Source: Plantactinospora endophytica (GTDB lineage: Bacteria > Actinomycetota > Actinomycetes > Mycobacteriales > Micromonosporaceae). From it: a DNA stretch of 64,000 bases. Where the stretch lies: the NCBI RefSeq assembly GCF_016862915.1, contig NZ_BONW01000004.1, forward strand, positions 248,001 through 312,000, in the 5' to 3' direction. The position numbers were made by a program, and so were the translations under genes. The notes beneath the pieces are model-generated. The model saw nothing but the letters and a program-made list of their open reading frames with translations. It was not told the DNA's origin and did not search any database. Positions 1 through 20,885 of this stretch are shown piece by piece. Numbering within the stretch: position 1 is the stretch's first letter; the number at the start of each line of letters is the position of its first letter.

Positions 1-209
1 TCCGGGCGTACGGGGCGCTCCGCGAGGAGGGCCTGATCGAGCTTCGCCGGGGACGCGGTGCGGTGGTGACCGGGGAGATCCCACACGAGCGGGCCCGGGT
101 GATCGAGTCGGTACGGGAGTTGGTGATGGTGGCCCGCCGCGCTGGCGTCGGCCTGGACGAGGCCGTCGCGCTGGTGCGGCAGCAGTATTCGAGAGAGGTG
201 AGCGCATGA
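1..209 (+). CDS. GntR-family transcriptional regulator, C-terminal fragment
   Basis: The reading frame is open from the window edge to a TGA at 207-209 and encodes the last ~68 residues of a regulator. The visible start, AYGALREEGLIELRRGRGAVV, is the end of a GntR winged helix: recognition helix, then wing. It is followed by a short helical tail with ALVRQQ, as in the small YtrA-type GntR proteins that lack a large effector domain. The gene overlaps the next one by 4 bases (ATGA), so the two are translationally coupled. A short GntR regulator paired with a membrane protein is a common actinobacterial arrangement, and it probably controls its own operon. The 5' part lies outside the window. 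Confidence 0.85.
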   Translation, partial: RAYGALREEGLIELRRGRGAVVTGEIPHERARVIESVRELVMVARRAGVGLDEAVALVRQQYSREVSA

Positions 210-1243: not shown

Positions 1244-1302
1244 CGACGACCGGCGGGCGTGGGGTCATCCGGAGACGGGTGGCCCCACGCCCGCCGTCGT
1301 GC

Positions 1303-3150: not shown

Positions 3151-3232
3151 TCGACAAGTGTGGCACTCCCAGCCGGAGTACGCCGGCTCCGACGTCCGCC
3201 GGGTCCAGCCAGCGGGACACGGACCGGTGGCC

Positions 3233-3326
3233 GGGAACCGCCCGACCTGGCCGGGACCGGCCCCCAGCGGCCCCTCCTGCTGCCCGGGGAACCGCCCGAC
3301 CTGGCCGTGACCGGGCCCCAGCGGCC
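3233..3326. repeat. Imperfect 40-bp direct repeat in the ilvD/GGDEF-EAL intergenic region
   Basis: Two copies of a 40-bp sequence beginning GGGAACCGCCCGACCTGG lie at 3233-3272 and 3287-3326. They are offset by 54 bp and differ at 2 positions. They occupy the middle of the 334-bp gap (3151-3484) between two divergent genes. No gene is visible in the rest of the gap; the promoters of both genes must be there. The repeat could be a recent duplication or a double binding site. Confidence 0.75.
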
Positions 3327-3484
3327 TTCCGGCAGGGCTGGTCGGGCCTGCTGCCGCTGTCGCTCCGGCCCGCTCGCTCTGGCCCGATCGTCCCGGAGAC
3401 GCCCGAATGGGCGGTCTGTGCCTCTGATCGAGGAACTCGGCCACGCTCCCCCATGGAATCGGATCGATCCGGCAGAGTGAACGC

Positions 3485-5875: not shown

Positions 5876-5879
5876 CCAC

Positions 5880-5915
5880 ATGTCTGCGACCAGGTCCTTC
5901 CGAGTACTTATCTGA
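5880..5915 (+). CDS. ilvB leader peptide MSATRSFRVLI
   Basis: An 11-codon ORF, ATG to TGA, encodes MSATRSFRVLI. The last three sense codons are GTA-CTT-ATC (Val-Leu-Ile), the three amino acids whose synthesis the downstream genes serve. The stop codon is followed immediately by a perfect 10-bp stem and then a U-tailed terminator. This is the layout of a ribosome-mediated attenuator, known for actinobacterial ilvB operons (experimentally in Corynebacterium glutamicum ilvBNC). The ATG coincides with the predicted transcription start, and no Shine-Dalgarno is seen. Confidence 0.8.
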   Translation: MSATRSFRVLI

Positions 5916-5976
5916 GCGCACTCTCGACCCAGAGAGTGCGCAGGCCCCGTGCATCAGCACGAGGGCCGTTTTTATT
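5916..5976 (+). promoter_or_regulatory. ilvB attenuator: pause stem plus intrinsic terminator
   Basis: GCGCACTCTC (5916-5925) pairs perfectly with GAGAGTGCGC (5932-5941) around a 6-nt loop, giving the 1:2 stem directly after the leader stop codon. It is followed by GGCCCCGTGC (5943-5952), loop ATCA and GCACGAGGGCC (5957-5967, one bulged A), then a G and TTTTTATT, a classical intrinsic terminator. Premature termination here would be expected when Val, Leu and Ile-tRNAs are charged. About 165 nt of further leader separate the terminator from ilvB. Confidence 0.85.
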
Positions 5977-6140
5977 GGCCACGTACCTCCTGGCAGGGCG
6001 GTCCCGCTGGCGTACCGGGCCCTGCCGGTCCGTGCGGATCGGCCCCGCCCGAGCAGGCCGTCCGGCCCGCGCCGAGGCCCGCCCGCACCGCTCCGTACAT
6101 CTCGACAGATCACTGCTCCGAGCCGAAGGCCTGAATAGCC

Positions 6141-8081
6141 ATGACGAGACCCACACCCGAGACCCTGGCCAACAGCGCGCGCCGGCACCGGCCCGCTGCT
6201 GCCGAGGGGAGCAACGACTCCGCCGACCAGTTCCCCCGCCGGCTCCGCCCCGGCGCCCAGCCGGCCGGCGAGCAGTCCGGTCCGTTCGGCGAGCCGGGCC
6301 GGACCGCCGCCGGAGGCGGCCAGGTGGTAGCACCGGTCCAGGTCTCCGGGGCCGGTTCACTGGTCAAGTCGCTTGAGGCGCTCGGGGTCGAGGTCGCGTT
6401 CGGCATCCCGGGCGGGGCGATCCTGCCGGCGTACGACCCGCTCTACGACTCGTCGGTGCGGCACATCCTGGTCCGGCACGAGCAGGGCGCCGGGCACGCC
6501 GCCACTGGATACGCGCAGGCCACCGGTCGGGTCGGGGTCTGCATCGCCACCTCCGGGCCGGGCGCCACCAACCTGGTCACGCCGATCGCGGACGCGTACA
6601 TGGACTCGGTGCCGATGGTGGCGATCACCGGGCAGGTGGCGCGGCCGGCGATCGGCACGGACGCCTTCCAGGAGGCCGACATCCAGGGCATCACCCTGCC
6701 GATCACCAAGCACAACTTCCTGGTGCAGACCGCCGAGGAGCTCCCGCGGATCCTGGCCGAGGCGTTCCACCTGGCGGCCACCGGCCGGCCCGGTCCGGTG
6801 CTTGTCGACATCCCGAAGGACGTCCTCCAGGCGCAGACCACCTTCTCCTGGCCGCCGACCCTGGACCTGCCGGGCTACCGGCCGACCCTGCACCCGCACG
6901 GCAAGCAGATCCGGGAGGCGGCCCGGCTGATGACCACCGCCCGCCGCCCGGTGCTCTACGTCGGCGGCGGCGTGCTCAAGGCCGGCGCCACCGAGGGCCT
7001 GCGCAAGCTGGCCGAGCTGACCGGCATCCCGGTGGTGACCACGCTGATGGCCCGGGGCGCCTTCCCCGACTCGCACCCGCAGCACCTGGGCATGCCGGGC
7101 ATGCACGGTACGGTCGCCGCCGTCTACGGGTTGCAGAAGTCCGACCTGATCGTGGCGCTGGGGGCCAGGTTCGACGACCGGGTGACCGGCAAGCTGGACT
7201 CGTTCGCCCCGGGGGCGGCGATCGTGCACGCCGACATCGACCCGGCGGAGATCGGCAAGAACCGGGCCGCCGACGTGCCGATCGTCGGCGACGCGAAGTA
7301 CGTCATCGACGAGCTGATCGAGGCGGTCCGGGCGGCCACCGCCGGGCAGACCGCGGCGATCGACCGGACCGACTGGTGGGCGCAGTTGGACGACCTGCGC
7401 GACCGCTACCCGCTCGGCTACGACGAGCCGACCGACGGCACCCTGGCCCCGCAGTACGTGATCGAGCGGCTGGGCGCGATCGCCGGCCCGGAGGCGATCT
7501 ACGTGGCCGGGGTGGGTCAGCACCAGATGTGGGCGGCGCAGTTCGTCTCGTACGAGAAGCCGTACACCTGGCTGAACTCCGGTGGCCTGGGCACGATGGG
7601 TTACGCCGTGCCGGCGGCGATGGGCGCCAAGGTCGGCAAGCCGGACACGGTGGTCTGGGGGATCGACGGCGACGGCTGCTTCCAGATGACCAACCAGGAG
7701 CTGGCGACCTGTGCCCTGGAGGGGATCCCGGTCAAGATCGCGGTGATCAACAACGGCAACCTGGGCATGGTCCGGCAGTGGCAGACGCTCTTCTACGGCG
7801 AGCGCTACTCCAACACCGAGTTGGGCACGCACAAGCACCGGATTCCTGATTTCGTGAAGCTGGCCGAGGCGCTGGGCTGCGTCGGGCTGCGCTGCGAGAG
7901 CAAGGCCGACGTGGACAAGACCATCAAGGCCGCGATGGAGATCAACGACGCGCCGGTGGTGATCGACTTCGTGGTCGGCAAGGACGCCATGGTGTGGCCG
8001 ATGGTGGCCGCCGGCACCAGCAACGACGAGATCATGTTCGCCCGCGGGGTCCGTCCCGCCTTCGACGACGACGAGCTGTGA
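6141..8081 (+). CDS. ilvB: Acetolactate synthase large (catalytic) subunit IlvB
   Basis: IlvB is the thiamine diphosphate enzyme that condenses two pyruvates to acetolactate, or pyruvate with 2-oxobutyrate to acetohydroxybutyrate. The 646 residues comprise a disordered ~70-residue N-terminus, the Pyr domain ([12 protein letters not shown], catalytic Glu in [10 protein letters not shown]), a central FAD-binding domain, and the PP domain with [12 protein letters not shown] and [11 protein letters not shown]. The first gene of ilvBNC, it lies behind the leader-peptide attenuator. The ATG has only a weak purine stretch upstream, so the exact start is uncertain. The catalytic core is complete. Confidence 0.97.
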
Positions 8082-8139
8082 GGCAGTGCAGATGAGCAAG
8101 CGTAGCGAGCGAATCAGTCAACTCAGTGCGATTGAGCCT

Positions 8140-8174
8140 CATGACGGCACGGAGCGAAGCGGAGTGCCGGCATG
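8140..8174 (+). promoter_or_regulatory. Hairpin enclosing the ilvN ribosome site and start codon
   Basis: CATGACGGCAC (8140-8150) and GTGCCGGCATG (8164-8174) form 11-bp arms with one mismatch around a 13-nt loop (GGAGCGAAGCGGA). The 3' arm contains the ilvN ATG, and the loop edge contains its only Shine-Dalgarno-like GGAG. The phrase ATGAGCAAGC also occurs at 8092 and again at 8172. It resembles a dispersed repeat placed between ilvB and ilvN, and it may couple ilvN translation to ilvB. That function is inferred. Confidence 0.5.
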
Positions 8175-8687
8175 AGCAAGCACACGCTGTCCGTGCTGGT
8201 GGAGAACAAGCCCGGGGTGCTGGCCCGGGTGAGCGGACTCTTCTCCCGCCGGGGCTTCAACATCGACTCGCTGGCGGTCGGGGAGACCGAGAACCCGGAC
8301 GTCTCCCGGATCACCATCGTGGTGAACGCCGACTCCTCGCCGCTGGAGCAGGTCACCAAGCAGCTCAACAAGCTGGTGAACGTACTCAAGATCGTGGAGT
8401 TGGATCCGGGCGTCTCGGTCGCCCGGGAGTTGGTGCTGGTCAAGGTCCGGGCCGACCGCTCGCAGCGGGCCCAGGTGCTGGAGACGGTGAACCTGTTCCG
8501 GGCCAGGGTGGTGGACGTCGCCCCGGACACCCTCACGATCGAGGCGACCGGCACCGCTGACAAGCTGGACGCGCTGCTGCGCGACCTCGAACCGTTCGGG
8601 ATCAAGGAAATGGTGCAGTCGGGTCTGGTGGCCATCGGGCGGGGCTCCCGCGCGATCACCACCGGCTCGGCGCTGCGGGCCGCCTGA
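8172..8687 (+). CDS. ilvN: Acetolactate synthase small (regulatory) subunit IlvN
   Basis: IlvN binds IlvB, raises its activity and confers valine feedback inhibition. The 171-residue length is typical of the short actinobacterial form. An N-terminal ACT domain runs from HTLSVLVENKPGVLARVSGLF to about residue 78, and the C-terminal domain ends with the conserved EMVQSGLVAIGRGS. It lies 90 bp after ilvB in the same operon, and its start sits in a hairpin that may couple the two subunits. It is followed directly by ilvC. Confidence 0.97.
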   Translation: MSKHTLSVLVENKPGVLARVSGLFSRRGFNIDSLAVGETENPDVSRITIVVNADSSPLEQVTKQLNKLVNVLKIVELDPGVSVARELVLVKVRADRSQRAQVLETVNLFRARVVDVAPDTLTIEATGTADKLDALLRDLEPFGIKEMVQSGLVAIGRGSRAITTGSALRAA

Positions 8688-9770
<1,083 letters not shown>

Positions 9771-9779
9771 CGCGGCGCC

Positions 9780-9855
9780 CGTCCCGGGCCGGGAAGCGTA
9801 CCGGCCCGGGACGGCACCGGCACGGCGGAAGATCCTTCTCGTTACCGGATCTTCC
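9780..9855 (+). terminator. Tandem hairpins after ilvBNC
   Basis: A perfect 13-bp stem (CGTCCCGGGCCGG at 9780-9792, its complement at 9801-9813, 8-nt loop) is followed by a second perfect 9-bp stem (GGAAGATCC at 9827-9835, GGATCTTCC at 9847-9855). Neither has a long T tract, as is usual for actinobacterial terminators. They separate ilvC from the next gene. Confidence 0.7.
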
Positions 9856-9972
9856 CCCGGCGCGTTACCGGATCATTGCCATTCGACGTCCAATCGGTAC
9901 CCCGACCGTTGTCGTCAGGAAATGGTTGGCGGTTACGGGCGGTTAATGCTTCCGCTCGGGTACTGTCGCCGC

Positions 9973-11217
9973 ATGCGTCTGGAGCAATCGCACCGCACCG
10001 AGCGTTTCGGCGCCGTCCGGATCCACGAACTTCAGCGGGTCATACAGCTGGACTCGGGAGACGCCACAGGGACCACCGGCGAGGGGATCGTCTCGCAGGC
10101 GGCGATGCGCGCCATCGAGCGGCAGATGGTCATCGTCATTCCCTGTATGAATGAGACACGCAGAGTAATCGAAGGTGTGCTCTCGGGGATTCCCCATGAT
10201 TGTTTGATCGTGCTCGTCTCGAACAGCGCCCGAGCGCCGGTCGACCGTTACGAGATGGAAGCGCAGACCCTGGAGCAGTACTGCCGGGCGACCGAGCGGC
10301 CGGCGATCATGGTGCACCAGCGGGACCCGGGGCTGGCCGCCGCGTTCAAGGCCGCCGGCATGCCCGAGCTGATCGACGACGACGGGCTGGTCCGGGCCGG
10401 CAAGGGCGAGGCGATGCTGATCGGCATGGCCGTCGCCGCGCTGACCGGCCGGAAATACCTCGGCTACATCGACGCCGACAACTACGTGCCCGGTGCCGTG
10501 CACGAGTACGTCAAGGTCTACGCCGCCGGCCTGCACCTCGCCGCCAACCCGTACGCGATGGTCCGGATCTCCTGGCACTCGAAGCCGAAACTGCGGGACG
10601 GCCGACTCTTCTTCAGCCGGCGCGGCCGGAGTTCCGAGATCACCAACGAGTTCCTGAACCGGCTGGTGGCGGAGTATTCCGGGTTCGGCACCGAAGTGAT
10701 CGCCACCGGCAATGCCGGCGAACACGCGCTCAGTCTCGATCTCGGGCTGCGGATGCGGCTGGCCGGCGGCTTCGCCGTGGAGCCGTTCGAGTTCGTCGAG
10801 CTGTTCGAACAGTTCGGCGGGCTGCTGGACACCGCGCATCCCGAGGTGATGGCGAGTTCCGTTCCGGTACTCCAGATCGAGACCCGTAACCCGCACTTCC
10901 ACGACAACAAGGGCGAGGACCACGTGCAGGGCATGCGGATGCAGGCGCTGAACGTGCTCTACCACTCGCCGGTGTCGCTGCCCCCGGTACGCGAGGCGAT
11001 CCTCGACTTCATGGTCGCCCAGCGGGCGCTCGCGCCGGGCGAGGAACCGCCCCGGGAACGGATCTACCCGCCGGTCGGCTCGCTCGCGCTGGACCTGCTG
11101 CGCGACGTGCTGGAGACCGAGGCCGGGACCTTTCGCCAGCTCGGCACCCGGTCGCTGGTCGCCCAGCCCGGCCCGCGCCCGGGGCTGCCCGAGCCCGAGG
11201 TGGTCACCTCGGCCTGA
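9973..11217 (+). CDS. mpgS: Mannosyl-3-phosphoglycerate synthase-like glycosyltransferase
   Basis: The protein closely matches the pattern of archaeal and Thermus MpgS, which transfers mannose from GDP-mannose to 3-phosphoglycerate on the way to the compatible solute mannosylglycerate. Visible landmarks are the ERFGAVRIHELQRVIQLD N-terminus, VIPCMNE, VSNSxR, VHQRDPGLAAAFK, RAGKGEAM, the metal-binding DAD (167-169), the TGNAGEHA segment and NPHFHDNKGEDHV. The start ATG at 9973 fits the family and lies 6 nt after TACTGT, suggesting a leaderless mRNA; the longer frame adds 17 unrelated residues. No mannosyl-3-phosphoglycerate phosphatase is in the window. Donor specificity (mannosyl or glucosyl) cannot be read from the sequence. 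Confidence 0.85.
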   Translation: MRLEQSHRTERFGAVRIHELQRVIQLDSGDATGTTGEGIVSQAAMRAIERQMVIVIPCMNETRRVIEGVLSGIPHDCLIVLVSNSARAPVDRYEMEAQTLEQYCRATERPAIMVHQRDPGLAAAFKAAGMPELIDDDGLVRAGKGEAMLIGMAVAALTGRKYLGYIDADNYVPGAVHEYVKVYAAGLHLAANPYAMVRISWHSKPKLRDGRLFFSRRGRSSEITNEFLNRLVAEYSGFGTEVIATGNAGEHALSLDLGLRMRLAGGFAVEPFEFVELFEQFGGLLDTAHPEVMASSVPVLQIETRNPHFHDNKGEDHVQGMRMQALNVLYHSPVSLPPVREAILDFMVAQRALAPGEEPPRERIYPPVGSLALDLLRDVLETEAGTFRQLGTRSLVAQPGPRPGLPEPEVVTSA

Positions 11218-11295
11218 ACCGCCGGTGCGGCCCGCCGTCCGGGTCGGCCGCGCCCCGCCGCCGTGATCAGTGGTTCCGGGGGCGGCGGTCACCGG

Positions 11296-11364
11296 CCGTG
11301 CCGCCATGACCGGGCGAGCCGTGCCGCCACGACCGGGCGGTCCGCGCCGGCATGACCGGGCGGT
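11296..11364. repeat. Three 23-bp tandem repeats upstream of serA
   Basis: GCCGCCATGACCGGGCGA-like units recur at a 23-bp period (ATGAC at 11306, ACGAC at 11329, ATGAC at 11352), with more degenerate relatives on both sides. The 416-bp gap (11218-11633) otherwise holds no gene. Nearer to serA it contains a small palindrome, GTGAG-GGCA-CTCAC (11467-11480), which might be an operator. Confidence 0.6.
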
Positions 11365-11633
11365 CCGGAGGGCGATGGGAACCGGGCCGCGCCGCCGTGA
11401 CCAGTGGCGCCGAAGATCGACGGATGCCGGGCCGCGCCGCCGGGACCGGCCGGGCGGAGGCGGCTTGTGAGGGCACTCACGCGGTTCTGCGCCGCACCGT
11501 GCGCAGCAGGGCGCCTACGATCGGCAGATAGGTGCGTCCGCACCGTTGGGACGACCCGAACGGCGGAAGCGCGGGACGCAGTGCGGCGCCCACGTGGCCG
11601 CAGACCTCGCCCGGACGACATATACGAGGACCA

Positions 11634-13235
11634 ATGACTCCCGTCGTACTGATCGCTGAAGAGCTCGCTCCTGCCGCCATCGACGTGCTCGCGCACGACT
11701 TCGACGTACGCCACGTCGACGGCACCGACCGCCCTGCCCTGCTCAGCGCGCTCGCCGAGGCCGACGCGGTCATCGTACGCAGCGCCACCCAGGTCGACGC
11801 CGAGGCCATCGCCGCGGCGCCCCGGCTCAAGGTGGTCGCCCGGGCCGGAGTCGGGCTGGACAACGTCGAGGTGCCGGCCGCGACCGCCCGGGGCGTGATG
11901 GTGGTCAACGCACCGACCTCCAACATCGTCTCGGCCGCCGAGCAGGCCGTCGCGCTGCTGCTGGCCGTCGCCCGGAACACCGCCAGCGCCAGCGCCGCGC
12001 TGAAGGCGGGGGAGTGGAAGCGGTCGAAGTACACCGGGGTGGAGGTCCAGGGCAAGACCGTCGGGGTGGTCGGGCTGGGCCGGATCGGCGTGCTCTTCGC
12101 CCAGCGCATCGCGGCGTTCGGCACCCGGCTGATCGCGTACGACCCGTACATCCAGCCGGCTCGGGCGGCGCAGCTCGGCGTACGCCTGGTCGGGCTGGAG
12201 GAGCTGCTCCGGGAGAGCGACTTCATCTCGATCCACCTGCCGAAGACCCCGGAGACGGTCGGCCTGATCGGCGAGAAGGAACTCGCCATGGTCAAGCCGG
12301 GCGTCCGGATCGTCAACGCGGCCCGGGGCGGCCTGGTCGACGAGCAGGCGCTGGCCGACGCGATCGCCGAGGGCCGGGTCGGCGGCGCCGGCATCGACGT
12401 GTACTCGAAGGAGCCCTGCACCGCCTCGCCGCTGTTCGCCTTCGACAACGTGGTGGCCACCCCGCACCTGGGCGCCTCCACCGCCGAGGCACAGGACAAG
12501 GCCGGCCTGGCGGTGGCCCGCAGCGTCAAGCTCGCGTTGCAGGGCGAGTTCGTGCCGGACGCGGTGAACGTGCAGGCCGGCGGCGTGGTCGCCGAGGACG
12601 TCCGGCCGCTGCTGCCGCTCGCCGAGAAGCTGGGCAAGGTCTTCACGGCGGTGGCCGGCGGAGTGGCCGCCAGCGTCACCGTCGAGGTACGCGGCGAGAT
12701 CGTCGCCAACGACGTCTCGGTGCTCAAGCTGGCCGCCACCAAGGGCCTCTTCACCTCGGTCGTCGAGGAGCAGGTCAGCTACGTCAACGCCCCGCTGCTC
12801 GCCGCCGACCGGGGCGTCACGGTCGCGCTGACCACGCACGGGGAGACCATCGACCACCCGAACCTGGTCACCGTGCGCGGCGCGCTGCCGGACGGGCGTA
12901 CCGTCTCGGTTTCCGGCACGGCGGTGCACACCGGCACCCGCGACGTGCTCAAGCTGACCGAAGTGGACGGCTTCGACCTGGAACTCGGCGCGGACGGGAT
13001 CCTGCTCTTCTTCCGCTACGTGGACAAGCCCGGCGTGGTCGGCACGATCGGCTCGATCCTCGGCGAGGCCGGCGTCAACATCGCGGCGATGCAGGTGGCC
13101 CGGCGGGAGGCCGGCGGCGAGGCGCTGATGACCCTGACGGTGGACTCGGCGACCGCTGCCGAACTGCTCAGCTCGGCGGCCGACGCGATCGGCGCGGTCG
13201 CGGCGAGCGCCGCCGACCTGCGCGACGAGGTGTGA
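11634..13235 (+). CDS. serA: D-3-phosphoglycerate dehydrogenase SerA
   Basis: SerA oxidises 3-phosphoglycerate to 3-phosphohydroxypyruvate, the entry to serine synthesis. The 533-residue length matches the long actinobacterial form: substrate and NAD domains (GLGRIG at 147-152, NAARGGL, ATPHLGASTAEAQD), then an allosteric-substrate-binding domain and a C-terminal ACT domain (YVDKPGVVGTIGSILGEAGVNIAAMQV) that mediates serine feedback in this type. The ATG at 11634 has an ACGAGGACCA ribosome site, and an upstream extension of 34 codons has no family character. It is monocistronic and ends in a strong hairpin. Confidence 0.97.
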   Translation: MTPVVLIAEELAPAAIDVLAHDFDVRHVDGTDRPALLSALAEADAVIVRSATQVDAEAIAAAPRLKVVARAGVGLDNVEVPAATARGVMVVNAPTSNIVSAAEQAVALLLAVARNTASASAALKAGEWKRSKYTGVEVQGKTVGVVGLGRIGVLFAQRIAAFGTRLIAYDPYIQPARAAQLGVRLVGLEELLRESDFISIHLPKTPETVGLIGEKELAMVKPGVRIVNAARGGLVDEQALADAIAEGRVGGAGIDVYSKEPCTASPLFAFDNVVATPHLGASTAEAQDKAGLAVARSVKLALQGEFVPDAVNVQAGGVVAEDVRPLLPLAEKLGKVFTAVAGGVAASVTVEVRGEIVANDVSVLKLAATKGLFTSVVEEQVSYVNAPLLAADRGVTVALTTHGETIDHPNLVTVRGALPDGRTVSVSGTAVHTGTRDVLKLTEVDGFDLELGADGILLFFRYVDKPGVVGTIGSILGEAGVNIAAMQVARREAGGEALMTLTVDSATAAELLSSAADAIGAVAASAADLRDEV

Positions 13236-13253
13236 CCGGGTCCTGACACCCGG

Positions 13254-13297
13254 GACCCGGACGGGGCGGATCGCTGGTCGGCCGCCCCGTCCGGGTC
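13254..13297 (+). terminator. serA terminator
   Basis: A perfect 16-bp stem, GACCCGGACGGGGCGG (13254-13269) with its complement at 13282-13297 and a 12-nt loop, begins 18 bp after the serA stop. It touches the 3' end of the convergent small gene, so it can serve both strands. There is no T tract. Confidence 0.8.
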
Positions 13298-13649
13298 AAC
13301 CGTTCACCGGAGTCGGTGGCGGATAGACCGAACCGTCCTGCGGGTCCAACAGCATCAGGCCGTGCGCCGCGGCCAACCGTTCGATGTCCAGCAGTACCTC
13401 GTCCGCACAGGACTCGTCCAGGTTCATCTCGACGTGGTCGACGGCGACGTGCAGCGGGGTCACCGCCCACGGCGTACCAGGTCCCGGCCGGTCCGGATAG
13501 CCGGCGGTGATCGCCCGGTAGAACGCCGAGACCCGGGCGTCCGAGCGCCCTCCGACATGGACACCCTGCCGGCACCGGCGGTGCGCCGCGCGTACGTCGT
13601 CGGCGGCGGCGCCGGGCCCGAGCGCCCATACGATCAGATCGAAACTCAC
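13296..13649 (-). CDS. Small conserved hypothetical protein (MSFDLIVWA type)
   Basis: A 117-residue soluble protein with GTG start and a GGGAG ribosome site 6 nt upstream. The N-terminus MSFDLIVWALGPGAAADDVRAAHRRCRQG and the C-terminal helix followed by LLDPQDGSVYPPP are of a type seen in many actinobacteria without known function. An acidic segment (VDHVEMNLDESCADEVLLDIERL) follows the middle. There is no signal peptide, membrane segment or catalytic motif. It is convergent with serA and shares the terminator hairpin. A role as an immunity-type or housekeeping protein cannot be decided from the sequence. Confidence 0.7.
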   Translation of the reverse strand: MSFDLIVWALGPGAAADDVRAAHRRCRQGVHVGGRSDARVSAFYRAITAGYPDRPGPGTPWAVTPLHVAVDHVEMNLDESCADEVLLDIERLAAAHGLMLLDPQDGSVYPPPTPVNG

Positions 13650-14075
13650 ACCGGGCTCCCGTACCCCAAGAGTGTTGACAGATCAGAACTCACGGGGGTA
13701 CAGGGTGCCACCTGAGTCGGTGACCTTCCCCGGATAGCCCGCCGACACGCGGAACGGCAACTCTTGCGGTGACTCACGTCGGGTCGATAGCGTATTGACG
13801 CGGATACCCGGCGAGTTCCTAGGCGTGGACTCGTCTTCGGGTGATGAGGCGTCGCGCCGGCCGGGTAGCCAGCACCCCCGTGTGCGCGAGCCACGCGCAC
13901 TCGTCGCTGATCGGCCCCCGTGATCGTTGCCGAGATCGCGGGGGCCGATCGCGTCAGCCCACCCCGCCGCCGCTCCACAAGGGTGCCCGGATGCCGGCCC
14001 GGCCTGCTAGCTGTCAGCGGGCGGTGCCGCTCTACGGCGTGGCGGATGCCGGCCCGACCTGTGGGCGGGGGTCGG
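13650..14075. other. 426-bp gap with promoter-like boxes and strong inverted repeats
   Basis: No gene is visible. On the + strand there are two good -35 boxes (TTGACA 13675-13680 and TTGACG 13795-13800), each followed after 18-19 bp by TA-containing -10-like sequences. Further on are a 7-bp stem (GTGCGCG 13882-13888 / CGCGCAC 13894-13900) and a perfect 12-bp stem, GATCGGCCCCCG (13909-13920) / complement 13939-13950. The last may terminate the ApbE-like gene, which ends at 14076 on the other strand. A small RNA starting near 13830 is possible but unproven. Confidence 0.4.
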
Positions 14076-14936
14076 TCAGCGGGCGGTGGCGAAGAGGGCG
14101 CGGTATCCGTCCCGGGTGGGGAACCAGTCCAGGCCGGTGCGGCCGGCGGCGAACAGCGCGGTGGCGTAGCCGTCGGCGACCGCCAGGTCCGGACCGGTGA
14201 CGGTGGCCGCGAGCAGCTTGTCGGCCGGCTGGCCGGTGTGCGGGTCCACCACGTGGTCGCGCCGGCCGGCGACCCCGGAGGTGCCGATCGCCCCCGACGT
14301 CATCTCCAGCAGCATCGGCTGGCGGTCGCCCTTGGTCGGGTGGTGCACCGCGACCCGCCAGGGGCCGCCGTGCGGCGCGTGGCCGCGTACGACCAGGTCG
14401 GCGCCGCTGACCACGGCGTAGTCCTCGATGCCGGCGGCGCGTAGCCGCGCGGCGGCCCGCTCCACCGCCCAGCCGACCAGCAGGCCGCCCGGGTCGAAGC
14501 CGCCGGGCACCGCCCAGGCGTCGAACCAGCCGTCCGTGGCGGCCCGCATCGCGGCGCAGCGCGCGACGATGTCGGCCAGCGGCGGGTACGCGTCCGCGGA
14601 GATCTCGCCCCGACGCAGCCGGGAGACCAGGCTGGCCGGCCGGGCCGGGCTGTAGGTCAGGTCGATCGCGCGCAGCTCGGCGACGGCGTCCCGCAGCGCG
14701 TCACCGACCCCGCGCCAGCCGACCGCACCCATGCCGTTGAGCACCAGGGTGTATTCGGCGATCGAGGTCTGCACGGTGTGCCGGGCGACCACCCGGTCGG
14801 TCAGGGTCGCGCCCGGCCGGACGTTGCGCCAGCCGGCGCCCAGCCGCAGGTCCGGCCGTCCCCGGCCCACGGCGGGCGCCGGCGGCAGACTCCGGCTACG
14901 CTGGCCCCGACCCCGGCCGCCACCGGGGATTCGCAT
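14076..14936 (-). CDS. ApbE-family FAD:protein FMN transferase-like protein
   Basis: The protein has 286 residues. The C-terminal half shows the ApbE pattern: FDPGGLLVGWAVERAAARL, DLVVRG, SGAIGTSG, HVVDPHTGQPA and ADGYATALF, where the acidic residues normally bind Mg2+. ApbE proteins attach FMN to target proteins or hydrolyse FAD. The N-terminal Arg-rich ~45 residues lack the usual signal peptide and the MGT motif, so it may be a diverged or cytoplasmic form. The start at 14936 is supported by AGGGGGCG just upstream; later starts cannot be excluded. No flavoprotein target gene is nearby. Confidence 0.7.
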   Translation of the reverse strand: MRIPGGGRGRGQRSRSLPPAPAVGRGRPDLRLGAGWRNVRPGATLTDRVVARHTVQTSIAEYTLVLNGMGAVGWRGVGDALRDAVAELRAIDLTYSPARPASLVSRLRRGEISADAYPPLADIVARCAAMRAATDGWFDAWAVPGGFDPGGLLVGWAVERAAARLRAAGIEDYAVVSGADLVVRGHAPHGGPWRVAVHHPTKGDRQPMLLEMTSGAIGTSGVAGRRDHVVDPHTGQPADKLLAATVTGPDLAVADGYATALFAAGRTGLDWFPTRDGYRALFATAR

Positions 14937-14939
14937 GTT

Positions 14940-14978
14940 CGCCCCCTGGATCCGCACGCTCTCGCCCCCTGGATCCGC
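14940..14978. repeat. Duplicated 16-bp segment carrying the ApbE-like gene's ribosome site
   Basis: CGCCCCCTGGATCCGC occurs at 14940-14955 and again at 14963-14978, offset by 23 bp. The first copy supplies the AGGGGGCG ribosome site (minus strand). The second may be a relic of a local duplication. The remainder of the 240-bp gap to leuB (14937-15176) holds the divergent promoters only. Confidence 0.6.
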
Positions 14979-15176
14979 GTCCTGCACCCCAGCCCCGCAG
15001 GCCGGTCCCGCAGGATGTGCTTCGCGCTCACCATAGGAAGTGAATATGGCTAGAGCATGAGAGCTGGCTGAGAAGCTGCTGTGCAGTTGACTTTCCAGAT
15101 ATTGGGAGCGGCGTACCGGGAGCCGGGACGGTCCCTTAACGTTCCTTAGACACGACGGAGGCAAGGGAGCTGGGAC

Positions 15177-16214
15177 GTGGCGGTGGCGCGGATCGCGGTG
15201 GTGGCTGGCGACGGCATCGGGCCGGAGGTGGTCGCGCAGGCCCGCAAGGTGCTCGACGCCGTACTGCCCGGCATCGAGGCCACCGAATACGATCTTGGTG
15301 CGGCACGTTACCACCGGACCGGCGAGGTGCTGCCCGACTCCGTGCTCGCCGAGCTGGCCGGGCACGACGCGATCCTGCTCGGCGCGGTCGGCGACCCCAC
15401 CGTGCCGCCCGGGGTGCTGGAGCGTGGTCTGCTGCTCAAGCTCCGCTTCGAGTTCGACCAGTACGTCAACCTCCGGCCGTCCCGGCTCTGGCCGGGCACC
15501 ACCGGGCCGCTGGCCAGCGTCAAGCCGAACGAGATCGACCTGGTGGTCGTCCGTGAGGGCACCGAGGGGCTCTACGCCGGGGCCGGCGGCGCGCTGCACC
15601 GGGACACCCCCGCCGAGGTCGCCACCGAGGAGAGCCTGAACACCCGGCACGGCGTCGAGCGGGTGATCCGGGACGCGTTCGCCCGGGCGGGGCGCCGCGA
15701 GCGCCGCAAGGTCACCCTGGTGCACAAGACCAACGTGCTGACCCACGCCGGCTCGCTCTGGGCCCGCGCCTTCGCCGCCGTCGCCGCCGAGCACCCGGAC
15801 ATCGAGACGGAATACCAGCACGTCGACGCCGCCGCGATGTTCCTGGTCACCCAGCCGCAGCGCTACGACGTGGTGGTCACCGACAACCTCTTCGGGGACA
15901 TCCTCACCGACATCGCCGCCGCCGTCACCGGCGGGATCGGGCTGGCCGCCAGCGGCAGCATCAACCCCGAGCGGGCGTACCCGTCGATGTTCGAGCCGGT
16001 GCACGGCTCGGCGCCGGACATCGCCGGCCAGGGCGTGGCCGACCCGGCCGCCGCGGTGCTCTCCACCGCGCTGCTCCTCGACCACCTGGGCCACCCCGAC
16101 GCGGCCCGCCGAGTAACCGAGGCGGTCGCCGCCGAGCTGGCCACCCGCACCTCGGGCTCGCCGCGGCGTACCGCCGACATCGGGGACCGGCTCGCCGCCC
16201 ACGCGGCGTCCTGA
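15177..16214 (+). CDS. leuB: 3-isopropylmalate dehydrogenase LeuB
   Basis: LeuB oxidises and decarboxylates 3-isopropylmalate to 2-oxoisocaproate in leucine synthesis. The 345 residues fit the short actinobacterial Leu[12 protein letters not shown] opens the protein, followed by [35 protein letters not shown], the substrate/NAD region [17 protein letters not shown] and [18 protein letters not shown]. The start is GTG at 15177 with a GGGAGC-type site upstream. It stands alone between the ApbE-like gene and ilvE, far from leuCD, which is usual in this group. Confidence 0.97.
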
Positions 16215-16447
16215 ACCGCGCAGGTGGTCGGTGTCCAGGTCACTGCTGTTGGCCTGGCCCGCCCGCCCGACCCGTCCCGTCCGCAGGCCCGGCCGACGCC
16301 GGTTCTGGGCGAAGGCGCGGGTGGTGCGGCTCGCCGGTCACCCGGAGGGTCGAGGTTGAACGACCGTTCGGGTAAGTTTCAGGCACAACTCCCATGCCCG
16401 GAGCCGTCCGTGCCCGGGCGCCGGTTCACACTCTGGAGGTCAGCACG

Positions 16448-17548
16448 ATGAGCGGTGGTGACAAGCTCGATTTCGAGGTCCGTCCGAATCCTCAGCCGGT
16501 AGCCGCCGCCGAGCGCGCAGCGCTGATGGCCAACCCGGGGTTCGGTCGGGTCTTCACCGACCACATGGTCACGATCCGGTACGCCGAGGGCAAGGGCTGG
16601 TACGACGCCCGGGTGGAGGCCCGCGCGCCGATCCCGATGGACCCGGCGAGCGCAGTACTGCACTACGCCCAGGAGATCTTCGAGGGGCTGAAGGCGTACT
16701 CGGCGGCGGACGGGTCGGTGACCATGTTCCGGCCGGACGCCAACGCCGCCCGGTTCAACGAGTCGGCCCGTCGGATGGCCATGCCCGAGCTGCCGGAAGC
16801 GGTGTTCATCGACTCGCTGCGGCACCTGGTGGAGATCGACCGGGCCTGGCTGCCCACCTCCGAGGAGGCCAGCCTCTACCTGCGGCCGTTCATGTTCGCC
16901 AGCGAGGTCTTCCTCGGCGTGCGCCCGTCCAACGAATACCTCTACGCGGTGATCGGGTCGCCGGTCGGCTCGTACTTCGCCCGGGGCGGGGTGCAGCCGG
17001 TGGACGTCTGGGTCTCGCCCACCTACACCCGGGCCGCACCCGGCGGCACCGGCGAGGCGAAGTTCGGCGGCAACTACGCCTCCTCCCTGGTCGCCCAGGC
17101 GGAGGCGATCGAGCACGGCTGTGACCAGGTGGTCTTCCTCGACGCCGTGCAACGCAGGTACGTCGACGAACTCGGCGGCATGAACATCTTCTTCGTGTAC
17201 GACGACGGCACCCTGGTCACCCCGCCGCTCGGCGGCACCATCCTGCGCGGCATCACCCGGGAGTCGCTGATCACGCTGGTCCGGCAGTCCGGCGGTACGG
17301 TGCTGGAGCAGCCGGTGGCGTTCGACGACTGGCGGGCCGACGCGGCCAGCGGGCGGCTGCGGGAGGTGTTCGCCTGCGGCACCGCTGCGGTGATCACCCC
17401 GATCGGGCAGGTGCGCTACCCCGACGGGGAGTTCACCATCGCCGACGGCAACCCCGGCGAGGTCACCACGCGGCTGCGGCAGACCCTTGTCGACATCCAG
17501 CGGGGTCGGGTCGAGGACACCAACGGCTGGATCCACCGAATCGGCTGA
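16448..17548 (+). CDS. ilvE: Branched-chain amino acid aminotransferase IlvE
   Basis: IlvE is the PLP enzyme for the last transamination to valine, leucine and isoleucine. The 366 residues show the fold-type IV pattern: EIFEGLKAYSAADGSV, FRPDANAARFNESARRM, YLRPFMFAS, the PLP lysine in GEAKFGGNYASS, and DELGGMNIFFVYDDG. The ATG at 16448 has GGAGG 9 nt upstream. An in-frame ATG at 16394 would add 18 residues without a ribosome site. Upstream, TAAGTT (16373-16378) could be the -10 box. A hairpin lies between this gene and the convergent phosphatase. Confidence 0.97.
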   Translation: MSGGDKLDFEVRPNPQPVAAAERAALMANPGFGRVFTDHMVTIRYAEGKGWYDARVEARAPIPMDPASAVLHYAQEIFEGLKAYSAADGSVTMFRPDANAARFNESARRMAMPELPEAVFIDSLRHLVEIDRAWLPTSEEASLYLRPFMFASEVFLGVRPSNEYLYAVIGSPVGSYFARGGVQPVDVWVSPTYTRAAPGGTGEAKFGGNYASSLVAQAEAIEHGCDQVVFLDAVQRRYVDELGGMNIFFVYDDGTLVTPPLGGTILRGITRESLITLVRQSGGTVLEQPVAFDDWRADAASGRLREVFACGTAAVITPIGQVRYPDGEFTIADGNPGEVTTRLRQTLVDIQRGRVEDTNGWIHRIG

Positions 17549-17554
17549 TCAGGA

Positions 17555-17594
17555 CCCGCTCGGACGCCTGGACCGACCGGGTCGGCCGAGCGGG
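17555..17594. terminator. Bidirectional terminator between ilvE and the phosphatase gene
   Basis: CCCGCTCGG (17555-17563) and CCGAGCGGG (17586-17594) form a perfect 9-bp stem whose loop can fold further (GACCGACCGGGTC-like). It lies between two convergent genes. Confidence 0.6.
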
Positions 17595-17637
17595 CCCGTG
17601 CCGTCGGGGCGCCGGTCAGTCCAGGCCGGGGCGCCGG

Positions 17638-18375
17638 TCAGTCCAGCAGGTGGGTCCGGAGGGCGTCCAGCCGGGCCGGGGCCAGTCCGGCGCCGACCAG
17701 GTAGTCCGGCACCGATCCGTGCCGGTCGCGCAGCTCGGCCAGGAACAGGGTCATCGCCTCGGCCGGCGAGGCGAGGAACGGCGCCGGCACCGGTGCCGCG
17801 TCCGGCATGGTGCTGGCCAGCCACTCGCTGAACCGGGCCGAGGCGGCGGTGCTCCGGGCGTAGTCCTCGGCGATGTCGTCGTCGGCGACGCCGAGCACCG
17901 ACAGGGTGAGCGCGCAGACCACCCCGGTCCGGTCCTTGCCGGCGACGCAGTGCACGAGTACCGGCGCGGCCTCGGCGTCGGCGATCACCTCGATCGCCGC
18001 CACCAGCCCGGCCCCGCCGGTGGTGGCCAGGTCGTGGTAGCGGTCGGCCAGGTAGCGGGCCAGGCCGAGTTCCTCGGAGTACGCCGCCTCCTCCCAGAAC
18101 GCGTGCTCCGGATGGATGTGCTGGTAGACCAGGCCGTCGTAGGCGGGCACCCGGCCGTGCCGGCGTACCTCTGAGGGGCGGCGGAGGTCGACCACGGTAC
18201 GGATGCCGAGCGCCTCGAACGCCGCCCGGTCGGTGCCGTCGATCCGGTGCGGCGAGTCCGACCGGTACAGCCGTTGCCGGCGGACGGGCCGGCCGTCGAG
18301 CCCCGGGACGCCGCCGACGTCCCGGAAGTTGAAGAGGGTTTCGAAGACCGTCGCACGCGTCGAGGTTCCATCCAC
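17638..18375 (-). CDS. Tyrosine-specific protein phosphatase (DSP/PtpB-like)
   Basis: The protein has 245 residues with the signature HCVAGKDRTG, catalytic Cys143 and Arg149. The N-terminus ATVFETLFNFRDVGG, followed by LYRSDSPHRI and TVVDLRRPSEV, is typical of the bacterial tyrosine/lipid phosphatase family that includes mycobacterial PtpB. It would hydrolyse phosphotyrosine or phosphoinositide-like substrates; the actual substrate is unknown. The start is GTG at 18375; no ATG is available before the conserved N-terminus. No tyrosine kinase gene is in the window. No signal peptide is visible, so it is probably cytoplasmic. Confidence 0.88.
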   Translation of the reverse strand: MDGTSTRATVFETLFNFRDVGGVPGLDGRPVRRQRLYRSDSPHRIDGTDRAAFEALGIRTVVDLRRPSEVRRHGRVPAYDGLVYQHIHPEHAFWEEAAYSEELGLARYLADRYHDLATTGGAGLVAAIEVIADAEAAPVLVHCVAGKDRTGVVCALTLSVLGVADDDIAEDYARSTAASARFSEWLASTMPDAAPVPAPFLASPAEAMTLFLAELRDRHGSVPDYLVGAGLAPARLDALRTHLLD

Positions 18376-18497
18376 GTGACCACCGTAGTGCCTACCTACG
18401 ACCCGTTCCGGCCGTCGATTCGGCGGGGGAGCCCGGCCCGGAGACGCCACTGGCCGGCAGGGCGGAAACCCCACCGGCCAGTTCGACTCCGGTCGCG

Positions 18498-18974
18498 TCA
18501 CATGGCGCGGCCCGGCGGAATCGTCCAGCCCGACGAGCCGTACGTCCCGCCGTAGTAGCCACCGAGCTTGTCCCGGTAGGCCGGATCCTCGTGCAGGGTG
18601 TCGTCGAGTTCCGGAGCGGCCTTGATCTGGTCCTTGCTCCGGTCGACGTACACCTTCCGGTCGTCGTGGTCGACGTGGTTCACCACGCCGGCCGGCAACA
18701 TGACCTTCTTGCCGAAGATCCACGGGCCGGTGTCGACCACCAGGTAGCTGGAGTTGACCTCGTGGCTGGCACTGTCGATCTTGCCAATGCCGCCGTCGGT
18801 CGCCTCCACCTTGTAGCCCACCAGGTCGGCACCGGTCACCCCGGCGTCGTCCCGGTAGCGCCACGGGTCGAACTCGCCCGAGGGCGTGCCTCCCGCGAAC
18901 GCTCCACCACCGCCATGGATCAGGGGATCCGGCGTCTGCTGCTGCGGGGTCGTCTGAGGATCGAGCCTCTCCAC
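18498..18974 (-). CDS. PRC-barrel domain protein
   Basis: A 158-residue soluble protein with a disordered Gln/Thr/Pro N-terminus and a PRC-barrel core at about residues 45-115 (DLVGYKVEATDGGIGKIDSA, SSYLVVDTGPWIFGKKVMLP, VNHVDHDDRKVYVDRSKDQI), then a Gly/Tyr-rich tail. PRC-barrel proteins are small beta-barrels found alone or in RimM and photosynthetic reaction centres; stand-alone actinobacterial copies have no established function. The start GTG at 18974 is preceded by AGGAG. It is divergent from the cimA leader, and the shared 172-bp region must hold both promoters. Confidence 0.85.
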   Translation of the reverse strand: MERLDPQTTPQQQTPDPLIHGGGGAFAGGTPSGEFDPWRYRDDAGVTGADLVGYKVEATDGGIGKIDSASHEVNSSYLVVDTGPWIFGKKVMLPAGVVNHVDHDDRKVYVDRSKDQIKAAPELDDTLHEDPAYRDKLGGYYGGTYGSSGWTIPPGRAM

Positions 18975-19146
18975 TGGCTATCACTCCTCTTCTCGACTGT
19001 CTCGACGTTATCCGCTGTCCCGGAAACATGTACCCAGGGTGGTCGATCCCTACACCAGGGAAGTTCGCCGGCCGCGTTCCGCCGGCTCGGTCCCGCGATG
19101 TGGATTTTTCCTCCCACATGCTCGACGCCGTGGCAGAGTACGTTCC

Positions 19147-19179
19147 GTGACCTGCTCCGCACTCATTATTGGCAGCTAG
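19147..19179 (+). CDS. Putative cimA leader peptide (V/M)TCSALIIGS
   Basis: A GTG-initiated ORF of 10 codons ending in TAG contains CTC-ATT-ATT (Leu-Ile-Ile); ATT is a very rare isoleucine codon in this genome. The stop is followed at once by a stem and then a U-tailed terminator, the same order as in the ilvB leader. Isoleucine codons fit because citramalate synthase feeds isoleucine synthesis. No Shine-Dalgarno is visible, so a leaderless mRNA is likely. It is too short to be found by ordinary gene callers. Confidence 0.65.
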   Translation: MTCSALIIGS

Positions 19180-19241
19180 CGCGCCGGCATCCTCCCGCCG
19201 AGCGCGCTGACCTCCCGCATTCGCGGGGGGTCATTTTGTTT
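19178..19241 (+). promoter_or_regulatory. cimA attenuator: stem plus intrinsic terminator
   Basis: AGCGCGC (19178-19184) pairs with GCGCGCT (19202-19208), starting inside the leader stop codon. Directly after it, GACCTCCCGC (19209-19218) pairs with GCGGGGGGTC (19223-19232) around ATTC, with one G-U pair, followed by ATTTTGTTTG. The 8-mer CCTCCCGC occurs twice (19191-19198 and 19211-19218), so the G-rich 3' arm can pair with either copy. That gives mutually exclusive structures, as expected of an attenuator. The AAGGAG ribosome site of cimA follows 50 nt later. Confidence 0.7.
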
Positions 19242-19295
19242 GTCGGGCCGGGAGGGCATCGGAACAGGGGCCGCGCCCTTCTCGAAGGAGATCAG

Positions 19296-20885
19296 ATGAC
19301 GTACCAGGTGTTCGACACGACGCTGCGCGACGGCGCGCAGCGCGAGGGGATCAGCTACTCGGTCGTCGACAAGCTGGCCGTGGCCCGGCTGCTCGACGAG
19401 CTCGGTGTCGGCTTCATCGAGGGCGGCTGGCCGGGGGCGATGCCGAAGGACACCGAGTTCTTCCGCCGGGCTCGCACGGAACTGGACCTGAAGCACGCCG
19501 TACTGGTCGCCTTCGGTGCCACCCGCAAGGCCGGCGTGGCCGTCGACGCCGACCCGCAGCTACGCGCGTTGCTGGACGCGGAGACCCCGGCGGTCTGCCT
19601 GGTCGCGAAGTCCGACATCCGGCACGTCGAGCGGGCGCTGCGGACCACCGCGGCGGAGAACCTGGCGATGGTCCGGGACAGCGTGGCGCACCTCGTCGCG
19701 CAGGGCCGGCGGGCGTTCCTGGACTGCGAGCACTTCTTCGACGGCTTCCGGCACGACCCCGGGTACACCTCGGCGGTGGTGGAGACCGCCCTCGAAGCCG
19801 GCGCCGAGGTCGTGGTGATGTGCGACACCAACGGCGGGATGCTGCCCTCCCAGGTGACGGCGGCGATCGGCGAGCTGACCGAGCGGCTCGGCATCTCGCC
19901 GGCCCGGCTCGGCATCCACACCCAGAACGACACCGGCTGCGCGGTGGCGAACACCATCGCCGCCGTCGAGGCCGGGGTACGGCACTTCCAGGGCACCGCC
20001 AACGGCTACGGCGAGCGGCCCGGCAACGCCGACCTGTTCGCGGTGATCGGCAACCTGCAACTCAAGCTCGGGCTACCGGTCCTACCGGACGGGTGCCTGG
20101 CGCAGATGGTGCGCGTCTCGCACGCCATCGCGGAGATCGCCAACATCGCCCCCGACACCCACCAGGCATACGTCGGGGCCGCCGCCTTCGCCCACAAGGC
20201 GGGGCTGCACGCGAGTGCGATCAAGGTGGATCCGCTGCTCTACAACCACGTCGACCCCGCCGTGGTGGGCAACGACATGCGGATCCTGGTGACGGAGATG
20301 GCCGGCCGGGCCAGCATCGAGCTGAAAAGCCGTGAGCTGGGTCTGGACCTGGCCGGCCATCCCGACGCCGCCGCGCGGGTCACCAACCGGGTCAAGGAGC
20401 TGGAGGCCGGCGGCTGGTCCTTCGAGGCCGCCGACGCCTCGTTCGAGCTGCTGGTCCGCGCCGAGCTGCCCGGGATGACCGCGCCCCGGCCGTTCGCGCT
20501 GGAGTCGTACCGGGTGCTGGTCGAGCACCGGGAGGACGGCGCGGTCGTCTCGGAGGCGACGGTGAAGCTCCGGGTACGCGGCGAGCGGGTGATCGCCACC
20601 GCCGAGGGGAACGGGCCGATCAACGCCCTCGACGAGGCGCTGCGGGTGGCGCTGCTGCGGCACTACCCGGAGCTGCGCGGGTTCGAGCTGGCCGACTACA
20701 AGGTACGGATCCTGGAGGGCAGCCACGGCACGGGTGCGATCACCCGGGTACTGGTGGAGACCGCCGACAGCGACGGACGGGACTGGACCACGGTGGGCGT
20801 ACACCCGAACGTGGTGGAGGCGAGCTGGCACGCGCTGGTCGACGCGCTGACGTACGGCGTCGCGCGTACCCCGGCCGAGGTCTGA
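19296..20885 (+). CDS. cimA: (R)-citramalate synthase CimA
   Basis: CimA condenses pyruvate with acetyl-CoA to (R)-citramalate, the first step of the threonine-independent route to 2-oxobutyrate and isoleucine. The 529 residues fit CimA: a DRE-TIM barrel (VFDTTLRDGAQREGISYSV, FIEGGWPGAMPKDTEFF, CDTNGGMLPSQV, HTQNDTGCAVAN, the GTANGYGERPGNADL motif), then HKAGLHASAIKVDPLLYNHVDP and a C-terminal LeuA-type allosteric domain. The FIEGGWPGA segment distinguishes CimA from LeuA-like 2-isopropylmalate synthases. The ATG at 19296 has AAGGAG upstream and lies behind the attenuator. It is monocistronic. Confidence 0.95.
   Translation: MTYQVFDTTLRDGAQREGISYSVVDKLAVARLLDELGVGFIEGGWPGAMPKDTEFFRRARTELDLKHAVLVAFGATRKAGVAVDADPQLRALLDAETPAVCLVAKSDIRHVERALRTTAAENLAMVRDSVAHLVAQGRRAFLDCEHFFDGFRHDPGYTSAVVETALEAGAEVVVMCDTNGGMLPSQVTAAIGELTERLGISPARLGIHTQNDTGCAVANTIAAVEAGVRHFQGTANGYGERPGNADLFAVIGNLQLKLGLPVLPDGCLAQMVRVSHAIAEIANIAPDTHQAYVGAAAFAHKAGLHASAIKVDPLLYNHVDPAVVGNDMRILVTEMAGRASIELKSRELGLDLAGHPDAAARVTNRVKELEAGGWSFEAADASFELLVRAELPGMTAPRPFALESYRVLVEHREDGAVVSEATVKLRVRGERVIATAEGNGPINALDEALRVALLRHYPELRGFELADYKVRILEGSHGTGAITRVLVETADSDGRDWTTVGVHPNVVEASWHALVDALTYGVARTPAEV

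Follow-up and report, generated by a model that had tools for sequence, protein, structure and literature searches.

A candidate isoleucine-codon attenuator in front of the citramalate synthase gene cimA in actinobacteria

In Plantactinospora endophytica, the citramalate synthase gene cimA is preceded by a putative leader that has two of the parts expected of leader-peptide attenuators, namely a short open reading frame (ORF) rich in codons for the pathway product and a predicted intrinsic terminator between this ORF and the gene. It is very probable that cimA is subject to attenuation at these isoleucine codons as such. The full explanation that we favour, a ribosome-mediated attenuator that places cimA under Ile-tRNA control and uses a hairpin directly before the terminator (stem A) as its switch, is likely to be correct, and the particular role of stem A in it, as an antiterminator acting by abutment or by competition at the boundary, has about an even chance. 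An isoleucine leader-peptide attenuator upstream of citramalate synthase had been proposed in an initial annotation of this DNA and is supported here as far as sequence goes. Ribosome-mediated attenuation of actinobacterial ilvB, leuS and other genes is already published; what our comparison suggests to be new is cimA as a target of branched-chain attenuation, together with a switching step unlike that of the classical three-strand scheme.

The window is the whole stretch of 64,000 nucleotides that was analysed. Around cimA it contains the following features.

19134..19139, + strand: -10-like hexamer CAGAGT, 7 nt upstream of the GTG (comparative hexamer count)
19147..19179, + strand: leader ORF, GTG to TAG, peptide VTCSALIIGS (sequence)
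19165..19170, + strand: tandem Ile control codons ATT ATT (sequence; Ile runs in relatives)
19178..19208, + strand: stem A, proposed antiterminator (MFE fold; pair changes in relatives)
19191..19198, + strand: first copy of CCTCCCGC, in the loop region of stem A (repeat search)
19208..19233, + strand: intrinsic terminator hairpin, abutting stem A (terminator scan; pair changes in relatives)
19234..19241, + strand: U-tract TTTTGTTT, predicted 3' end of a short transcript (sequence, terminator scan)
19296..20885, + strand: cimA, citramalate synthase (TIGR00977)

The GTG ORF with tandem ATT codons is present as had been annotated (GTG ACC TGC TCC GCA CTC ATT ATT GGC AGC TAG). It had been said to end where a stem begins, and in the fold its stop TAG indeed shares the first paired base of stem A; the U-tailed terminator expected immediately after the stem was located by the terminator scan with a spacer of 0 nt. 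In the MFE fold, stem A consists of a 5' arm (19178-19188), a loop (19189-19196) and a 3' arm (19197-19208) with a bulged A19201. The terminator has 11 pairs and the loop ATTC, with the U-tail directly after it, and T19208 is able to close either stem A or the terminator. The sequence CCTCCCGC occurs twice in the leader, at 19191-19198 and 19211-19218. The annotated rarity of ATT was confirmed, with 2 of 121 Ile codons in six coding sequences (CDS) of the window, and in-frame ATTATT is absent from the same six CDS. The downstream protein scores 599.6 bits against TIGR00977 (NCBIfam), for which the cut-off is 450. The 5' arm of the terminator (19205-19217) can also pair with 19249-19261, downstream of the U-tract, to which it is 85% complementary.

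The segment 19147-19246 folds at -48.4 kcal/mol, compared with -34.9 +/- 3.2 for its shuffles (z -4.3; 0/200 as low). The terminator scan alone is no evidence, because 3.5 +/- 2.3 terminator-like sites are found in shuffles and 2 in positions 1-20000 of the window. It is conservation that raises this predicted leader above chance. In a search of the window with Rfam, only two tRNAs reached gathering scores and no family matched the cimA leader; by E-value, two matches were found near cimA, both at chance level, and no Rfam T-box covariance match indicative of a T-box riboswitch was obtained at the leader.

A covariance model, R1, was built from cimA leaders only. The protein search gave 80 named cimA loci, 60 of which were used in building R1, and the model matched 75 of the 80, including 15 of the 20 loci outside training. 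Four named loci (L060, L065, L073, and L088; 4/80) gave no R1 match, and the fifth negative locus, L045, has only 27 nt of upstream sequence. At the MAG loci L073 and L088, without R1 match, the DNA directly before cimA resembles the end of ilvE; L073 and L080 are labelled Bifidobacterium breve, a doubtful label. R1 matched 60 of 61 genomes of the family at E <= 0.01 and 223 of 296 genomes of the class at E <= 0.1, a permissive threshold at which some matches are due to chance; cimA was found at E <= 1e-120 in 234 of 296 class genomes. Among the matches listed, at least 66 of the first 100 cimA genes have an R1 match 32-162 nt upstream. The same order of parts was observed in Micromonosporaceae, Geodermatophilaceae, Pseudonocardiaceae, Glycomycetaceae, Streptomyces, Thermobifida, and several uncultured lineages. 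The initial annotation had proposed aligning the leaders of relatives, and in such an alignment the Ile codons, the stem and the U-tail are kept and the flanks drift, the stretch from the terminator to the cimA start ranging from 24 to 176 nt across 77 loci.

Counts by leader refer to 139 distinct cimA leaders, for which entry required an in-frame start within 75 nt, or to the 136 that remain without L013, L015, and L062, where the ORF was mis-set. L075 was left out of the 139 because the wrong terminator had been chosen (the element is present and R1 finds it), and so were L095, L117, L125, L132, L133 (no terminator found), and L135. Stem A was positioned in the 139 leaders by folding without the terminator, and its overlap with the terminator was measured separately. 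In the Streptomyces cimA leaders L064, L075, L076, L079, L082, L083, L085-L087, and L089, stem A is enlarged by a long additional insert, and the ORF extends into its 5' arm.

Covariation was analysed in an alignment of 65 leaders, including the window and four members of the genus, with the two stems set as structure. Paired cells amount to 92.4%, compared with 33-61% for slid structures, and 12 of 21 pairs changed on both sides. The number of cells changed on both sides was 80, versus 23 +/- 3.8 in shuffles (0/500 had as many), values that serve as a guide and not as a probability because the shuffles ignore relatedness. Further pair types (28, versus 25.4 in shuffles; 47/500) did not go beyond the shuffles as the both-side changes did. 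In stem A, 7 of 10 pairs changed on both sides and 87% of the cells are paired, with the upper pairs misaligned in the rows that carry the bulged A; in the terminator, 5 of 11 pairs changed on both sides and 97% of the cells are paired. Both stems covary. The GCGCGC base is the best-kept part of stem A, its loop drifts, and no conserved third structure was seen in the cimA leader alignment.

The two stems stand directly against each other, with a spacer of 0 nt in 119 of 139 leaders, 1 nt in 17 and 2 nt in 3. In 120 of 139 leaders, a helix of 8 or more pairs comes to within 1 nt of the terminator; among 28 other terminators, drawn from 400 kb of sequence in two family genomes, the same holds for 2. 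In a smaller control, 8 of 18 other terminators had an abutting helix; these 8 lie in loci recruited by R1 matches and are read as leaders outside the set, and without those loci the count is 0 of 10.

The Ile run is two codons long in 97 of the 139 leaders, three in 35 and one in 7 as parsed. An in-frame codon starts 11 nt before stem A in 110 leaders and is ATT in 94, ATC in 15, and CTC in 1; the third base of the control codon drifts and the amino acid is kept. All Ile runs pooled contain 199 ATT, 106 ATC, and 1 ATA; the rarity of ATT is therefore not in itself the signal, ATC being used in other clades. Among in-frame starts placed 3 or more codons upstream, the nearest one precedes the Ile run by 4-8 codons (136 leaders). 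The first base of the leader stop is at -2 from the base of stem A in 85 of 139 leaders and at least 10 bases inside stem A in 38.

In 113 of 136 leaders, a hexamer of the form xAxxxT precedes the leader start codon by 6, 7, or 8 nt, and control three-offset windows clear of this peak (centres 1-4 and 10-18) score 2-22. The spacing is that between a -10 box and a transcription start, and a leaderless transcript is therefore predicted; in the window it would start at G 19147. This position rests on the comparative hexamer test because a strict sigma-70 scan of positions 1-20000 of the window found no promoter. The predicted start, at the GTG, is not downstream of 19179, in keeping with the initial annotation. 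A minus-strand ORF starts at 18974, so that cimA is downstream of a stretch separating divergent genes. The block ATGTGGATTnnnCCTCCCA at 19098-19119, upstream of the -10 hexamer and near the expected -35 position, recurs in Micromonospora relatives and is possibly an activator site.

The initial annotation had drawn a parallel with the leader of ilvB in the same window, and this parallel is borne out by R1, which finds that leader at 5904-5976 although the model was built from cimA leaders only (35 bits, genome-wide E 1.6e-6).

5880..5976, + strand: ilvB leader, ORF MSATRSFRVLI* (R1 match, fold, NCBIfam)

It is the sole further R1 match in the genome up to E 10. Its ten-pair stem A (5916-5941) is followed one base on by the terminator (5943-5967) and then by a U-tract; the fold has a z of -4.5, and the downstream gene, at 6141, is an acetolactate synthase gene according to NCBIfam. 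In the upstream part of this region (5844-5976) we observed TTGACT, 17 nt, CAGGCT, 7 nt, and then the ATG of the leader ORF, and this leader also looks leaderless.

Thirty further R1 matches, the window ilvB leader included, were examined; 16 stand before ilvB, 6 before leuS, 1 before leuA, and 1 before cimA, and the rest are one of leuS type at a contig end and five chance matches or plain terminators. Nine downstream genes and the window ilvB were checked with NCBIfam, and the leuS calls for L157 and L159 were made by ORF reading. At the level of the phylum, R1 matched in 55 of 198 genomes at E <= 0.001, ten of them within the class. Twenty stronger out-of-class matches, which are not the strict top twenty, comprise 13 before ilvB, 2 before leuA, 1 before cimA, and 1 before leuB (with a VIII leader), the remainder being 1 before a prephenate dehydratase-like gene, 1 at a contig end that is unclear, and 1 chance match. 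R1 leaders with branched-chain codons were found at leuS (L147, L155, L157, L159, L144, L145), leuA (L153, L213, L231), and leuB (L220). L218, a similarly shaped leader whose codons are Leu-Leu-Ile, stands before a prephenate dehydratase-like ORF that scores below the NCBIfam cut-offs. The control codons track the gene, with Ile for cimA and Leu-Leu for leuS and leuA, and most ilvB leaders have Val-Leu or Leu-Val-Leu, with or without Ile. The distance from control codon to stem A is looser in ilvB leaders, at 4-10 nt (23 of 24 ilvB, leuS, and leuA leaders were measurable). One sequence-structure model thus recognises the leaders of cimA, ilvB, leuS, and leuA, and because those of ilvB, leuS, and leuA have matching codons, we regard the cimA leader as a new target of a known kind of attenuator.

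Counted from the first P-site base, the mRNA channel of the ribosome holds 11 nt on the downstream side according to the available text of PMC7282821, and base counts inside the channel are good to about 1 nt since its length comes from this source. The last Ile codon lies 8 or 11 nt before stem A in 109 of 136 leaders, the spacing in the window and in most Micromonosporaceae being 11 and not 8. If the last Ile codon occupies the A site, stem A is wholly outside the channel in 126 of 136 leaders, has one base in it in 8, and has two in 2. If the stop codon occupies the A site, six bases of stem A are inside the channel in 85 of 136, and never fewer than four in any of the 136. Overlap of an Ile codon with stem A does not occur (0/136).

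The anatomy, its conservation, the covariation, the spacing, and the control codon that follows the gene are the observed part of our model; we infer the start site, the ribosome positions, the termination, and the blocking by stem A as follows. The mRNA would begin at or beside the leader start codon. When Ile-tRNA is plentiful, the ribosome would pass the Ile codons and reach the stop that overlaps the base of stem A, where it would hold about six bases of the 5' arm; the GCGCGC base would be melted and stem A left unclosed, the abutting terminator could fold, and transcription would end near 19241. Under shortage of Ile-tRNA, the ribosome would wait on the Ile codons with the first pair of stem A just outside the channel, stem A would close, and the terminator would be unable to complete inside RNA polymerase because the base of stem A is directly against its own base, so that cimA would be transcribed. 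For starvation to raise expression, the intact stem A must favour readthrough. In the RNA exit channel there would presumably be no room for the abutting helix of stem A next to the closing base of the terminator, an exclusion that relies on a steric argument because stem A and the terminator fold together in free RNA. As the arrangement recurs across actinobacteria, the cell probably senses shortage of Ile by slow translation of the leader.

In folds where the ribosome waits on the last Ile codon and the terminator 3' arm has yet to be transcribed, the 5' arm of the terminator pairs upstream over 0 nt in 126 of 136 leaders, 1 nt in 4, and 2 nt in 6. On this result (0-2 nt of pairing with the ribosome on the Ile codons), pairing of the stem A 3' arm with the terminator 5' arm was rejected as a classical antiterminator, and an antiterminator that excludes the terminator by sharing one of its strands was not found in the 136 folded cimA leaders. 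The lack of a shared strand lowers the probability of a classical three-strand attenuator, not that of a leader that works like an attenuator. When the ribosome is placed on the stop instead, the released part of stem A is paired to 3-8 nt of the terminator 5' arm in 90 of 136 folds of incomplete transcripts; this pairing is weak, but it would counteract termination under Ile-replete conditions.

The initial annotation had favoured a classical partner switch, in which the C-rich loop of stem A (CCTCCCGC) pairs with the terminator 3' arm and so serves as the antiterminator. The repeat behind this proposal exists, fragments of the window that start at 19187-19193 and end at 19226-19229 do fold loop-to-arm, and a model of this type is drawn for Corynebacterium ilvB-II in the available text of PMC10272879. 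Once the terminator arm is complete (19232 or 19241), however, the terminator wins from every 5' end tried; the loop-to-arm duplex of the window has -16.7 kcal/mol (z -1.2), compared with -21.4 kcal/mol for the terminator. Over 136 leaders, duplex energies compared with those of shuffled loops gave a mean z of -0.27, with z >= 1 in 15 leaders, and L078, L084, and L126 are almost without such pairing. Fourteen leaders, at least five of them from Geodermatophilaceae (L046, L048, L050, L051, L063), have z <= -2, and the pairing may therefore contribute in some clades; as a general mechanism the switch is not conserved and was rejected. The geometry also gives it the wrong sign, since the loop would be freed with the ribosome at the stop, which is the Ile-replete state. 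We consider this explanation improbable.

Slightly less probable still is that stem A acts as a pause hairpin that synchronises the ribosome with RNA polymerase, the terminator being controlled otherwise. Stem A is strong and would form behind RNA polymerase, and pausing at the upper hairpin is among the proposals made for C. glutamicum ilvBNC in the available text of PMC11857589, but such a role leaves both the abutment at 0 nt (119/139) and the readthrough under starvation without a reason, and no conserved third structure was seen in the alignment.

A protein or a small molecule could instead read stem A, as in a riboswitch or a protein-binding leader, with the ORF being secondary. Changes of leader codons in S. 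coelicolor ilvB were without effect on regulation, as reported in the available text of PMC1262725, a result that would fit this possibility and counts against our own model; the variation of the control codons with the gene (Ile at cimA, Leu at leuS and leuA), the drifting loop of stem A, and the lack of an Rfam riboswitch match in the window make it unlikely. That the terminator is constitutive, placed after a divergent promoter region with a chance ORF and without regulation, would agree with the minus-strand ORF from 18974 and with terminator-like sites being no rarer in shuffles, but this is very hard to reconcile with Ile codons conserved at a near-fixed distance, a control codon whose changes are mostly ATT/ATC exchanges, covariation in both stems, and wide presence in the class.

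Among the titles and abstract starts listed for open-licence PubMed Central, none was on the subject of cimA attenuation; PMC13158618, in its available text, mentions the terms for both together, with the words unrelated to each other. Ile-codon attenuation at cimA, which remains our preferred reading, may belong to a branched-chain attenuator design that extends over the phylum and in which the antiterminator does not compete for the bases of the terminator, a generalisation to which we give somewhat less than an even chance. In such a design, stem A might be a sensor of ribosome position at the mRNA entry that blocks the terminator only by abutment in the exit channel, and cimA might be the Ile-specific version, both on the same tentative footing. 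If the model is true, citramalate synthase, the entry step used for Ile only, is under Ile-tRNA control in many actinobacteria, a group rich in antibiotic producers, and cimA, ilvB, leuS, and leuA form a single regulon of common architecture at the RNA level. The narrow spacing and the zero-nucleotide abutment make switching without an overlapping antiterminator directly testable.

In the E. coli trp attenuator, a ribosome stalled on end-product codons decides termination, the codons lying in strand 1 and strand 2 pairing with strand 3. A stall on end-product codons is likewise proposed here to decide termination, but in contrast to trp, the Ile codons of the 136 cimA leaders never overlap stem A. 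An attenuator of ilvBNC was reportedly described in Corynebacterium glutamicum by Morbach in 2000. Like the cimA leader, that of ilvBNC combines a leader peptide with branched-chain codons, which there begins one base from the transcription start, with a candidate antiterminator hairpin adjoining the terminator. In the available text of Ryabchenko 2025 (PMC11857589), the antiterminator role is given to the hairpin with its base next to the terminator, and the function of the terminator is shown by mutation; mutations only in the antiterminator or the anti-antiterminator had moderate to weak effects, and most of the variation tracked terminator stability, which counts against our reading. According to the same text, the ilvBNC hairpins share a GCC trinucleotide, whereas the terminator arm of cimA leaders pairs upstream over 0 nt in 126 of 136; ilvBNC has a third, anti-antiterminator hairpin, whereas none was seen in cimA leaders; and the target there is ilvBNC with Ile, Val, and Leu codons, whereas here it is cimA with Ile alone. 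The adjoining hairpins of ilvBNC fit the logic of abutment, and this system is thus a partial precedent.

The actinobacterial ilvB and leuS candidates of Seliverstov 2005 share with the cimA leader the phylum, the amino-acid family, and a short ORF with a terminator; no cimA leader was found in the available text of that study (PMC1262725), and the Ile-specific run is particular to the cimA leader. In the available text of PMC8079986, several leader peptides of S. lividans are mapped as leaderless, IlvL and LeuL2 being leaderless with a short ORF and a terminator, as is predicted for the cimA leader, and the eight leader peptides of that text do not include one for cimA. The Corynebacterium ilvB-II element (Narunsky 2023, PMC10272879, available text) stands before ilvB, and its antiterminator is drawn between the P1 loop and the P2 arm, a pairing that is not general in cimA leaders. 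It has otherwise the same succession of parts as the cimA leader, with an upstream ORF, a P1 stem, a P2 terminator, and a U-run.
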